This document shows, piece by piece, positions 3,694 through 35,172 of a stretch of 35,861 nucleotides of DNA. The notes beneath the pieces were generated by a model. That model saw nothing but the letters and a program-made list of their open reading frames with translations, ran no database searches and was not told where the DNA came from. Source of the DNA: Kiritimatiellia bacterium (lineage in GTDB: Bacteria > Verrucomicrobiota > Kiritimatiellia > SLAD01); contig SLGY01000200.1 of assembly GCA_007136425.1 (NCBI GenBank), positions 1 through 35,861 on the forward strand, in the 5' to 3' direction. A program made the position numbers and the translations under genes. The number at the start of each line of letters is the position of its first letter. Position 1 is the stretch's first letter.

Positions 3694-3802
3694 TTCCAAC
3701 GATTGGAAGCTCAATGACCGCATTTTTCCAATCGTTGGAAGAATTTGCGCGTGTTTTTCCAATCGTTGGAACATTGCGGCCGGTTTTTTCCAATCGTTGG
3801 AA
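3694..3802. repeat. Four-copy array of TTCCAA-N3-TTGGAA inverted repeat, 31-32 bp period
   Basis: TTCCAACGATTGGAA at 3694-3708; TTCCAATCGTTGGAA at 3726-3740, 3757-3771 and 3788-3802; intervening sequences 17, 16 and 16 bp. Confidence 0.95.
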
Positions 3803-3803
3803 A

Positions 3804-3925
3804 GCACCCTGAAGGGGTGCAACAAATTCCTTGTGGCTCCCTTTCAGGGAGCACGGGTTTTGCCTCGCGCATTTCTCTTCCCCGGGTTTCACCCGGGGCT
3901 CATGAATGGCTCCCCTTCGGGGAGC
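3804..3925 (+). repeat. Four-hairpin dispersed element, copy A
   Basis: GCACCCTGAAGGGGTGC, GCTCCCTTTCAGGGAGC, CCCCGGGTTTCACCCGGGG and GCTCCCCTTCGGGGAGC in series; about 120 bp similar to 34866-34986. Confidence 0.9.
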
Positions 3926-4039
3926 ATGTTCCGCGAGATATCGGAAGGCGGGTAAGCGGGTCGGGTAAGAGTATCCGATTAAGGGTAGCGGTTAAGTGTA
4001 GGAAAGGAGTCGAGGAGGAAACAGACTCCGTACAATACC

Positions 4040-4065
4040 TGGGAGGGACACGCTCCTGCGTGTCC
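4040..4065 (+). repeat. TGGGAGGGAC hairpin family, copy A
   Basis: TGGGAGGGACACGCTCCTGCGTGTCC; stem GGACACG/CGTGTCC. Confidence 0.75.
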
Positions 4066-19250: not shown

Positions 19251-20357
19251 TCACTCTCCCACGCCTCGATCGTGCCGTCGATCCATCTCGTATTTCGGAT
19301 CATACTTGGAATTCGGGCCGAACCGCGAGTCGGTTTTATGCGCCCCTTCAAAGCGCCGCAGATCAGACGGCCACTCGGCCCGATATTCCATGATGTACCG
19401 GCGCCCTTCCCCGATGCGCTTGATGTAGCCGACCTTCGCGCCCAGCTCCTTATTGAGGGGATACCCCTTGATGTACCATAACAAATGCTTGCGCATCATG
19501 ATGGCGGCCAGCTCCGTGTCGCCGTAATGCGCCTCCTGATAGTCCAAATGCCGCAACACCACATCGCCCCATTCTTCCAACGTCGGATGCGCTGTTCGTT
19601 CCTCCAGCACCGAACGGAAGATCCACGGATTGCCCAGCGCGCCGCGACTGATCATGACCGCGTCGCAACCCGTTTCTTCGCGCATACGCCGCACGGAAGG
19701 CCAATCAAGCAAATCCCCGTTGCCCACCGTAACCAGCGGCCGGACCGCCGCCGCGCGCGCCGCCTCAATGCCGCGCCGGATGCCCTCCAAGTCCGCCGCT
19801 ACCCCGTATTTTTCGCAGCGCGTGCGACCGTGCACGGTGAACAGGTCCGCTCCCGCGCGCGCCACGCGACGCGCCGTGTCTTCGATCGATATCGCGCGCC
19901 GCGAAACGCCGAGCCGGGTCTTCACGGAAAGCGGACGCGCGGTTGCTTCACGCGCCGCGCCGACGGTGGCATCGATGCGTTCCGGTTCGCTCAAAATAGC
20001 GCTGCCGGACCCGCCCGAAACCACCTTCCGCACCGAGCACCCCATATTCAGGTCAATGGTATCGAACGGTAGACCGTCCAGAAAGCGTACCGCCTCCCGA
20101 ACCGATTCCGCCGACGGCCCCGTCACCTGTACCCCCAGCCGTTCCTCCGAAGAATGGCGTCGGCACATGTCAAGGGTACGCTTGTTCCGGTGGTGAATGC
20201 CCGCCGCCGACAGCATTTCCACATAGGTCAGGCCCGCTCCCAGCTCCTGGCAGATGCGACGGAATGGAACATCGCTCACACCGGCGAGGGGAGCGAGAAT
20301 CACACGGTTCGGGACCTTCAGCCCGCCGAACATGAATGGTTCTTGGAAAAAGTTCAT
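19251..20357 (-). CDS. dus: tRNA-dihydrouridine synthase
   Basis: PNRVILAPLAGVSDVPFRRICQELGAGLTYVEMLSA, DLNMGCSVRKVVSGGSGSAIL, VKTRLG, FTVHGRTRCEKYG, PLVTVGNGDL, DAVMISRGALGNPWIF. Confidence 0.95.
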   Translation of the reverse strand: MNFFQEPFMFGGLKVPNRVILAPLAGVSDVPFRRICQELGAGLTYVEMLSAAGIHHRNKRTLDMCRRHSSEERLGVQVTGPSAESVREAVRFLDGLPFDTIDLNMGCSVRKVVSGGSGSAILSEPERIDATVGAAREATARPLSVKTRLGVSRRAISIEDTARRVARAGADLFTVHGRTRCEKYGVAADLEGIRRGIEAARAAAVRPLVTVGNGDLLDWPSVRRMREETGCDAVMISRGALGNPWIFRSVLEERTAHPTLEEWGDVVLRHLDYQEAHYGDTELAAIMMRKHLLWYIKGYPLNKELGAKVGYIKRIGEGRRYIMEYRAEWPSDLRRFEGAHKTDSRFGPNSKYDPKYEMDRRHDRGVGE

Positions 20358-20436
20358 GAGTCTGCGTATCCTATGGCAAACGGTTAACGCGTGTTCAATG
20401 TTATTAGAACGGGCGGTGAACACGATAAAGACCGGC

Positions 20437-20488
20437 GGGACGGGCTTCCGCCTCCGCCCGGGCTGCGGCAGACAGGCTTGTCCCGTCC
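20437..20488. repeat. Hairpin-flanked cassette, copy 1
   Basis: Outer arms GGACGGG/CCCGTCC around CTTCCGCCTCCGCC..GGGCTGCGGCAGACAGG; core resembles 21940-21974. Confidence 0.55.
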
Positions 20489-20511
20489 GAAAAGGGGCTC
20501 GACGGCAAAGA

Positions 20512-20538
20512 GGACGACACGAAAGTCGTCCCTCCCAT
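20512..20538 (-). repeat. TGGGAGGGAC hairpin family, copy C (minus orientation)
   Basis: Minus strand ATGGGAGGGACGACTTTCGTGTCGTCC; stem GGACGAC/GTCGTCC. Confidence 0.75.
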
Positions 20539-20557: not shown

Positions 20558-21073
20558 ATGATGCGCCATTCAGCAACTCGAATCCTACTTATCGCGCTGC
20601 TCTGCGCCCCGCCCGTAATGGCTCTAGCCGATCAACGTATCGGCGCCGGCCTTCATTACTGGCGGACCGTGGATTCCATAGACGACCGGTCTTTCGATCG
20701 GGACGGCGTTTCGTGGCTGATCACGTACCAGAACTCCTTGCTCCCCCTCCTCACGTATCAAGCGGACCTCGAGATCTTCCCCAGCACGTTTGCCGGATCG
20801 GAAAGGACGGTCTACGCGCCGCAACTGCTCGGAATTGTCGGCCATTGGCTGTACGCGGGGGCCGGGATCGGCATCCTTTACGCGGACAACCGCTTCGGCG
20901 ATCGCCCCTTCTACCTGCTGCGCGCCGGACTGGCCCTCCCCGTCCTTCCGCGTATGCGCCTCGACATCAATGCCAACTACCATTTCTCGGAATGGAAAGG
21001 CATCAATCGTATCGCGCGCGACATCGATAGCGACGTCATCACATTCGGGGCCGCACTGCGCCTGGCATTCTGA
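20558..21073 (+). CDS. Small outer-membrane beta-barrel-like protein
   Basis: Signal peptide MMRHSATRILLIALLCAPPVMALA; alternating hydrophobic pattern, terminal aromatic ...ITFGAALRLAF*. Confidence 0.65.
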   Translation: MMRHSATRILLIALLCAPPVMALADQRIGAGLHYWRTVDSIDDRSFDRDGVSWLITYQNSLLPLLTYQADLEIFPSTFAGSERTVYAPQLLGIVGHWLYAGAGIGILYADNRFGDRPFYLLRAGLALPVLPRMRLDINANYHFSEWKGINRIARDIDSDVITFGAALRLAF

Positions 21074-22139: not shown

Positions 22140-23354
22140 TCACAGCGCGCGTTGCAGCACGTCGGCCAATTCCTCGTCCGTCAGTTTGACCGGGTTCCCT
22201 TTCATGCTGCTGGCATTGCGCGATTTCGCGATGATGTCCGGGAAATCATCGGACTGCACACCGTACGCGCCGAGCCCCCGCACGGAAAGCGTATCGCACA
22301 GCGCCTGCACCCAATCCATCCCGTCCTGCGCGACGGCATCCGGGCGACCAGTCAGAATGCGCGCAATCTCATCGTAGCGCGCCACGGACCGATTCCCGGA
22401 ATCGCGCTCGCTCAAGGCCTTGAGATTGGCCTCCATCACAAACGGCAAGAGCCGCGCGCACACCGCGCCGTGCGGCGCGGGATACATCCCGCCCAACGGC
22501 CCGGCCAACCCGTGCACCGCGCCCAACCGCGCATTGGCCAGCGCCAACCCGCTGCACAACGCCGCCAGACACAGATCCGCCCGAGCGCGGCGGAATGACA
22601 CACCCTCTTCATCTTTTTCATGGAGGGACGGGCTCCGTCCCGTCCGACCATGGTCGCGAGTGCACCCTTCCCATGCCGTCCGCAGATGGCGCGCACGACT
22701 TAACCCCTCGCGACATACCGCGTCGGTCAACGGACTCGAATTGTCGCTCACAAAGACTTCCATCAACTGCGTCAACGCGTCCAGACCGGACGCCGCGGTA
22801 ACGTCCGGAGGCAAGTCGTATGTGAGTTCCGGATCGACGAGCGCCACATGCGGCAACATCAATTCGTTCCGCATACTTACCTTCACCCGATGTTCCGGCG
22901 CGCCGACCACCGCATTGCGCGTCACTTCCGCGCCCGTCCCCGCTGTGGTGGGCACGGCAATATACGGCGCGGAACGATGCGCCAGCGGCCGGCCAGCCCC
23001 GATCACTTCAAGGTATTCCATCAACTCACCCTGGTTCGTCATCAGGGCCGAAACAACCTTGGCGGCGTCAATCACGCTGCCGCCGCCGATGCCTATGACC
23101 ATGTCGCACCCCGCCGCGCGCGCCGCGTGCAGCCCTTCTTCGATGACGTCAGTCGTCGGCTCGCCTTCCACGGAGTACGGCGTCGTGCGCACACCGTGTT
23201 GTTCCAGCAAGTCGACCAGAAACGCTGCGCGTTCGCGCGAGCGACCGGAAACAAGGAGTGCGTGTTTCCCGACACGCTCAGCCAACTCGGGTACGGTTTG
23301 CACCGTGCCTTCGCCGAAAATGATTTGCCCCGCTGTGGCGAATTGAAAATTCAT
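22140..23354 (-). CDS. Iron-containing alcohol dehydrogenase with an apparent in-frame insertion
   Basis: MVIGIGGGSVIDAAKVVSAL, PLAHRSAPYIAVPTTAGTGAEVTRNAV, ALVDPELTYDLPP, SGLDALTQLMEVFVS, LALANARLGAVHGLAGPLGGMYPAPHGAVCA. Confidence 0.93.
   Translation of the reverse strand: MNFQFATAGQIIFGEGTVQTVPELAERVGKHALLVSGRSRERAAFLVDLLEQHGVRTTPYSVEGEPTTDVIEEGLHAARAAGCDMVIGIGGGSVIDAAKVVSALMTNQGELMEYLEVIGAGRPLAHRSAPYIAVPTTAGTGAEVTRNAVVGAPEHRVKVSMRNELMLPHVALVDPELTYDLPPDVTAASGLDALTQLMEVFVSDNSSPLTDAVCREGLSRARHLRTAWEGCTRDHGRTGRSPSLHEKDEEGVSFRRARADLCLAALCSGLALANARLGAVHGLAGPLGGMYPAPHGAVCARLLPFVMEANLKALSERDSGNRSVARYDEIARILTGRPDAVAQDGMDWVQALCDTLSVRGLGAYGVQSDDFPDIIAKSRNASSMKGNPVKLTDEELADVLQRAL
22621..22645 (+). 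repeat. TGGGAGGGAC hairpin family, copy B (inside the ADH gene)
   Basis: TGGAGGGACGGGCTCCGTCCCGTCC; stem GGACGGG/CCCGTCC. Confidence 0.75.
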
Positions 23355-31169: not shown

Positions 31170-31179
31170 ATCGAACTTT

Positions 31180-31218
31180 GAACGTTCAATGTTGAGCGTT
31201 GGATGTTGGACGTTCAGT
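31180..31218. repeat. Degenerate heptamer (TTSRRYG) repeat, copy 1
   Basis: GAACGTTCAATGTTGAGCGTTGGATGTTGGACGTTCAGT; one mismatch over the shared 38 bp with 35024-35061. Confidence 0.85.
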
Positions 31219-31440
31219 CTTCCTGTCCCCGTTAGGGGTCGCGCCTTGTGCGTTGAAGGAGTCCGGATGCGTACCGGCTTTGATTCGTGAACGGCTGATG
31301 CGATCGTGACAGGGGCGGGGCCGGCATCTTTCCAGTCGAAAACATTTCAGAAGCGCTGCCTCCAGAGCTTGACGGCCACCCACGGATGTTGGCACCCTCG
31401 TACCATGAAAAGAACACGATCAACCATCTTGGAGGAACAA

Positions 31441-34865: not shown

Positions 34866-34986
34866 GCACCCTGAAGGGATGCAACAAGCTTCTTGTGGCT
34901 CCCTTTCAGGGAGCATGGTTCTTGCACTGCGCATTTTCTTCCCCGGGTTTCACCCAGGGCTTATGAATAGCTCCCCTTCGGGGAGC
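34866..34986 (+). repeat. Four-hairpin dispersed element, copy B
   Basis: GCACCCTGAAGGGATGC, GCTCCCTTTCAGGGAGC, CCCCGGGTTTCACCCAGGG, GCTCCCCTTCGGGGAGC; aligns with 3804-3925. Confidence 0.9.
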
Positions 34987-35023
34987 AACGGAATTTCCTT
35001 AAATGCTCCAACATCGAACATTC

Positions 35024-35061
35024 AACGTTCAATGTTGAGCGTTCGATGTTGGACGTTCAGT
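35024..35061. repeat. Degenerate heptamer (TTSRRYG) repeat, copy 2
   Basis: AACGTTCAATGTTGAGCGTTCGATGTTGGACGTTCAGT; heptamers TTCAACG TTCAATG TTGAGCG TTCGATG TTGGACG TTCAGTG. Confidence 0.85.
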
Positions 35062-35172
35062 GTTGCCGTTCAGATGTTCCTATCCCTATTTTCCCCGATG
35101 CAGCGAGATCAACTTGAAGTCGTCCGGCAAAGGCGGTAGAGGTCACAATCCCCCTCCAGGTTCACCCGAAGG

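Follow-up and report, generated by a model that had tools for sequence, protein, structure and literature searches.

The three GGAG-headed hairpins in this stretch of DNA are, judging from sequence, very probably REP elements, non-autonomous repeats that would be moved by a REP-associated tyrosine transposase (RAYT) and that mostly take the form of REPIN/BIME-type inverted pairs. We file them as REPs/REPINs because repeated GGAG hairpins flank RAYT genes in relatives. The window, by which we mean the whole 35,861-nucleotide stretch analysed, is one contig (G000:C59) of a 226-contig draft genome (G000; 2.6 Mb, 89% complete). Each window copy consists of GGAG followed by a 7-bp GC-rich stem and a 6-nt loop (n = 3). 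The features discussed below are as follows.

4042 to 4065, plus strand: probable REP copy A, GGAG-GGACACG-CTCCTG-CGTGTCC, leader GGAG at 4042-4045, covariance model E 4e-6.
22622 to 22645, plus strand: probable REP copy B, GGAG-GGACGGG-CTCCGT-CCCGTCC, leader at 22622-22625, covariance model E 8e-7.
20512 to 20535, minus strand: probable REP copy C, GGAG-GGACGAC-TTTCGT-GTCGTCC, leader at 20535-20532, covariance model E 5e-5.
20434 to 20488, plus strand: putative decayed inverted partner of copy C, read from the sequence as GGCG + GGACGGG...37-nt 'loop'...CCCGTCC.
22140 to 23354, minus strand: iron-dependent alcohol dehydrogenase gene, 404 aa, Pfam PF00465.

The original prediction had placed three related hairpins in the window, and all three are found where it put them: the pattern GGAGGGAC-N(9-16)-GTCC matches three times, as against 0.02 matches expected from shuffles, and the fold z-scores are -3.5 for A, -2.0 for B and -3.2 for C. 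Its description of the motif holds with some refinements. Of the shared leader, given as TGG(G)AGGGAC, the GGAG is invariant, whereas the preceding T/G is a mere preference; the covarying inner stem stands, whereas the outer stem, thought to be conserved, has a third pair that varies genome-wide as A-T, G-C or T-A (GGAC, GGGC, GGTC). Copy A is single and intergenic, and its stem can alternatively be read as 8 bp closed by the 4-nt loop TCCT. Copy C, also intergenic, forms with its decayed partner a REPIN-like pair (20434-20535) between the divergent ORFs 19251-20423 (minus) and 20558-21073 (plus). This pair is of the GAC/GGG type, as in C169, C185 and L201.

Collecting matches across G000 by pattern, profile and covariance-model searches showed a family of more than three copies. 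With the leader and loop as the pattern and no demand for pairing (GGAGGGNNNNNCTYCNK), there were 55 matches in the genome compared with one for the reversed-pattern control, and the covariance model returned 46 copies at E<0.01 in the 2.6-Mb genome, which puts the copy number at at least 46. Neither of the outcomes named beforehand as contrary, that only three loosely similar sequences exist or that the copies lack complementary variation, occurred. The converse search, in which the stem ends and loop were fixed while the leader and inner pairing were left free, gave 60 genome matches against 26. When the matches of this leader-blind search were grouped by whether their four free positions paired, GGAG was present on 42 of the 43 that were fully paired and on 3 of the remaining 17, these three resembling decayed copies; conversely, 42 of its 45 GGAG matches have perfect stems. 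The GGAG leader and complementarity therefore co-occur, being linked in a search that demanded neither.

Across 30 distinct copies, stem pairs 3, 5, 6 and 7 (of 7) vary on both sides, pair 3 as A-U, G-C or U-A, pair 5 as G-C, A-U or C-G, pair 6 as C-G, A-U or G-C, and pair 7 as G-C or C-G. The covariation score of these 30 copies, in an alignment that was itself selected for pairing, is 0.533, compared with 0.129 for shuffles and at most 0.242 for slid partners. A fairer test used 25 distinct copies picked by leader and loop only, and here 98 of 125 free cells were paired against a mean of 68.7 and a maximum of 83 after shuffling, although both tests are inflated by related copies, most of the nine GGACGCG/CTCCGT copies lying in one MITE-like element. 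The proposal of selection on the folded form is borne out, as four stem pairs covary with complementarity kept and GGAG and pairing travel together. Selection for folding of the hairpin stems is thus supported.

Copy B lies antisense inside the alcohol dehydrogenase gene, where alignment with orthologs reveals about 21 extra in-frame codons around it, at roughly 22590-22670. A presence/absence comparison of orthologous regions had been suggested as a check on mobility and, run at copy B, it found the site empty in G003, G004, G006 and G007 (in G004 the protein reads RTAWED-GRD-AKARSD). In the congener G001 this site holds a longer insert, also in frame, that contains two hairpins, one of the GAC type and an inverted one of the GGG type, and copy B is the counterpart of the GGG half of that pair. 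By this alignment, copy B is evidently an in-frame insertion into the alcohol dehydrogenase gene. The hairpin family is present in 66 of the 97 genomes searched, and the two congeners carry at least 76 copies and a single copy, respectively. Amplification of the family is patchy among relatives.

Copies of G000 that are less than 120 bp apart are inverted in 15 of 15 pairs, often with a gap of 0-2 bp, and this close inverted arrangement is the BIME/REPIN layout. Observed combinations are GGACGCG with GGTCACG or GGGCACG, and GGACGAC with GGACGGG or GGACCGC. The members always differ in stem (15/15), so that the idea of the stem as a subfamily tag is partly realized. Unlike stems would also avoid one long perfect palindrome. 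Elsewhere in G000, an inverted REP pair lies within a MITE-like element whose terminal inverted repeats (TIRs) are ~36 bp long (TAATACCA...TATTACTTCYCGGTACATTCTC); the element is seen at L006, L016, L025 and L026 and at the contig ends L001, L005, L011 and L012. TIRs are absent from the window copies, and only a subset of copies elsewhere is inside this element. Of the proposed REP/MITE-like mobile hairpin, the REP half is thus retained, given the multiplicity, inverted pairs, insertion and RAYT flanking, and the MITE half is not, given the lack of TIRs.

Searching ten copy-rich relatives with a Y1_Tnp profile pointed to a transposase in G009, which belongs to the same family as the window's genome, and there the 157-aa protein (L152/L155) is bracketed by the hairpins. 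The L155 RAYT passes NCBIfam NF047646 (REP-associated tyrosine transposase) with 87.7 bits at a cut-off of 80, has E. coli TnpA-REP 4er8 as its top PDB match, and carries an HUH motif (H66-x-H68) and a catalytic Y120 that are both invariant in alignment A2. Residues 80-131 have a weak local similarity to ribonuclease HI (E ~4e-4) that is probably due to chance. Homologs of this protein occur in 68 of 97 genomes, as well as across PVC genomes and in some other phyla. At 114 distinct RAYT loci, we tallied each tetranucleotide that stood 5′ of two or more GC-rich hairpins within 250 bp. GGAG ranks first, at 55 of these loci, and GTAG is present at 9; the next-ranked AGGG and GAGG mostly reflect the GGAG hairpins in a register shifted by one or two bases. 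GGAG hairpins stand on both flanks in 47 of the 114, and the GTAG loci cluster together on the tree. The median copy number is 14.5 where a genome has a close RAYT and 1 where it does not, kinship being uncorrected in this comparison.

The proposed search for a REP-associated transposase was therefore successful in relatives, among them the congener G001, where an in-frame RAYT gene contains these hairpin types and also has them next to it. The window's own assembly, at 89% completeness, holds no close RAYT and only a 30% identical homolog. None of its RAYT candidates L031-L036 adjoins hairpins that match this model, and some copy-rich relatives (e.g. G068) gave no RAYT match with this query. 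Since only the 30% homolog is present, the copies here may be orphan, or their RAYT may fall in an assembly gap. We infer that they stem from a RAYT that is now lost or unassembled.

At 12 loci the RAYT gene itself also contains in-frame REPs, which lie between its HUH motif and its Tyr motif (L163, L172, L181, L185-L189, L234, L236, L248 and L250), and their stems often match the REPs flanking that same gene. We considered such in-gene REPs as a new feature and rejected this, as Quentin 2018 (PMC6006769) reports the same. At L189 and L232 the segment of the RAYT gene that holds the Tyr occurs twice next to REPs, a pattern that would fit shuffling of transposase modules by REPs. A second REP-like family at L033 (G000:C125) occurs around and inside another Y1_Tnp gene, where it is in frame as TGFQPV..GKMPVSP peptides.

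From homology with E. coli TnpA-REP and IS200/IS605, we propose that the REP would fold as single-stranded DNA and that the RAYT, an HUH tyrosine transposase, would bind the hairpin, with the 5′ tetranucleotide (GGAG) and the fold counting for more than the sequence of the stem. The enzyme would then cut at a nearby dinucleotide by means of a transient phosphotyrosine link and rejoin the DNA elsewhere, so that copies spread. Both this action and the cut site are inferred by analogy; under the published model, in which tag bases 3 and 4 set CT, GGAG would be expected to still choose CT. Because a RAYT of this kind would attend to leader and shape more than to the stem, selection would act mainly on pairing and leader, and the stem bases would drift in complementary pairs.

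Another explanation for stable, GC-rich hairpins, two of which (A and C) are intergenic, is that they are immobile intrinsic transcription terminators or mRNA-stability elements kept by selection, and for REPs elsewhere a secondary effect on mRNA has been reported (PMC3733652). However, most copies have no following T run, an invariant GGAG leader is unneeded for termination, and copy B is antisense in a gene and lacking in orthologs, while other copies flank transposase genes. The insertion and RAYT evidence largely refutes this explanation, which we consider highly improbable. We give similarly little credence to the view that the hairpins belong to, or remain from, a TIR-bearing MITE or insertion sequence that a different, DDE transposase would move. 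The element with ~36-bp TIRs does carry an inverted hairpin pair and includes most of the nine GGACGCG/CTCCGT copies, but most other copies, including A, B and C, have unrelated flanks and no terminal repeats. The RAYT link, moreover, recurs in many genomes, and the TIR element then merely carries REPs as passengers.

If the hairpins are REPs moved by a RAYT, as we favor, the family could still be orphan and inactive in this organism, the fossil of a lost RAYT. That no close RAYT is in the assembly, that the partner of copy C has decayed and that copy B is half of the G001 pair are all consistent with this. Against it are the perfect stems of 42 of 45 GGAG matches, the in-frame RAYT of the congener G001 with the same hairpin types adjoining, and an incomplete assembly in which repeats tend to break contigs. 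On balance, we regard a fossil family as possible but somewhat doubtful.

The family resembles the published REP/BIME/REPIN and RAYT (TnpA-REP) systems (PMC2817692, PMC3116915, PMC8266576) in having a GC-rich palindrome with a conserved 5′ tetranucleotide in many copies, inverted pairs whose two members differ, stem changes that preserve pairing, and the same hairpins on both sides of an HUH transposase gene. Among the features that define the REP class, the 20-50 nt GC-rich palindromic hairpin, 5′ tetranucleotide, high copy number and inverted pairs were all found here, and a RAYT flanked by the same repeats was found in relatives, including G001, and not in the own assembly. The differences are a GGAG tag instead of GTAG/GTGG, a Kiritimatiellae-type host instead of a proteobacterium, and the lack of a cognate RAYT in the assembly. 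Copy number is also lower, with 46 copies at E<0.01 compared with the hundreds usual for REP elements in proteobacteria. With GGAG as its tag, the family cannot be filed in the GTAG super-family, which is tagged GTAG/GTGG.

Much of this behavior is already published: stems that covary, pairing in inverted orientation, copies within genes and REPs located in the RAYT gene itself. RAYTs together with REPs headed by GT(A/G)G were defined by Nunvar 2010 (PMC2817692), where it was also noted that stem changes keep complementarity. Di Nocera 2013 (PMC3733652) described super-families tagged GTAG and CGTC, dimers, and REPs within genes, among them some of the verrucomicrobium O. terrae. REPs were predicted with GTAG/GTGG descriptors by Quentin 2018 (PMC6006769), who also found in-frame REPs between the HUH and Tyr motifs of subclass 2.4 transposase genes. 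The family shares with subclass 2.4 a stem foot of three G-C pairs and in-frame REPs between HUH and Tyr; subclass 2.4 is reported with GT[AG]G tags and mainly from Cyanobacteria and Bacteroidetes. Opitutus terrae REPs (PMC3733652) are likewise from the PVC superphylum, inside genes and in dimers, but are tagged GTAG rather than GGAG. As short palindromes in frame within genes, Rickettsia palindromic elements and CGTC-tagged repeats (PMC3733652) recall copy B, but unlike the GGAG REPs they have a CGTC tag and no transposase association. The word GGAG was not found in the main texts of PMC2817692, PMC3733652, PMC6006769 and PMC8266576. We take the GGAG tag as a variant of a known REP kind for which these main texts gave us no description, the surveys having described or sought GTAG/GTGG.

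The transposase reads both tag and hairpin, the palindromes used by group 3 enzymes are perfect, and one system has its cut dinucleotide set by the tag (PMC8266576). At the residue aligned with H101 of E. coli TnpA-REP, in the guide-contact region, 10 of 10 GTAG loci have His and 53 of 53 scorable GGAG loci have Thr or Arg, although the tree gives one independent contrast for this link. Given that single contrast, and since published work reports Arg at the H101-equivalent site in GT[AG]G subclasses, we treat the apparent association as a lead, not a result. We tentatively speculate, at rather less than even odds, that GGAG marks a separate REP class that predominates with a group of RAYTs in the PVC phyla and was missed by surveys that sought GTAG/GTGG, guide base 2 having changed from T to G together with the H101-aligned residue. 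GGAG is the commonest class beside the RAYT genes sampled in Kiritimatiellae, Verrucomicrobia and Lentisphaerae genomes, and REP searches restricted to GTAG/GTGG would miss it. A natural change of guide tetranucleotide that comes with a transposase clade would permit a direct test of guide-reading residues and cut-site choice in TnpA-REP.

Several other readings of the motif were rejected. Pairing of loop CTCC with the GGAG leader in a pseudoknot does not fit the loops TGCCAC, TTCCAC and CTTTGT of other GGAG loci, and the loop CTCTGT is shared by a GTAG locus and GGAG loci. With varied loops under GGAG and CTCTGT under both tags, leader and loop do not covary. GGAGG as a Shine-Dalgarno sequence is at odds with the antisense position of copies within a gene and with the inverted pairing. 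A tag of nTGG followed by a 2-nt spacer does not fit either, as no G is conserved two bases ahead of GGAG. Rfam gave no match at gathering score in the window, and for the L163 hairpin pair only below-threshold microRNA matches.

The window also contains other repeats. Two copies of a longer repeat, at 3804-3926 and 34866-34987, are 79-93% identical and include several small hairpins (CCCCGGGTTTCACCCGGGG, GGCTCCCCTTCGGGGAGC). Three 31-bp tandem units that start TTTTTCCAATCGTTGGAA lie at 3723-3815, and a further repeat at 31170-31226 and 35013-35069, 89% identical, is built around a TTGAACGTTCAATGTTGAGCGTT-like sequence (GAACGTTCAATGTTGAGCGTT).
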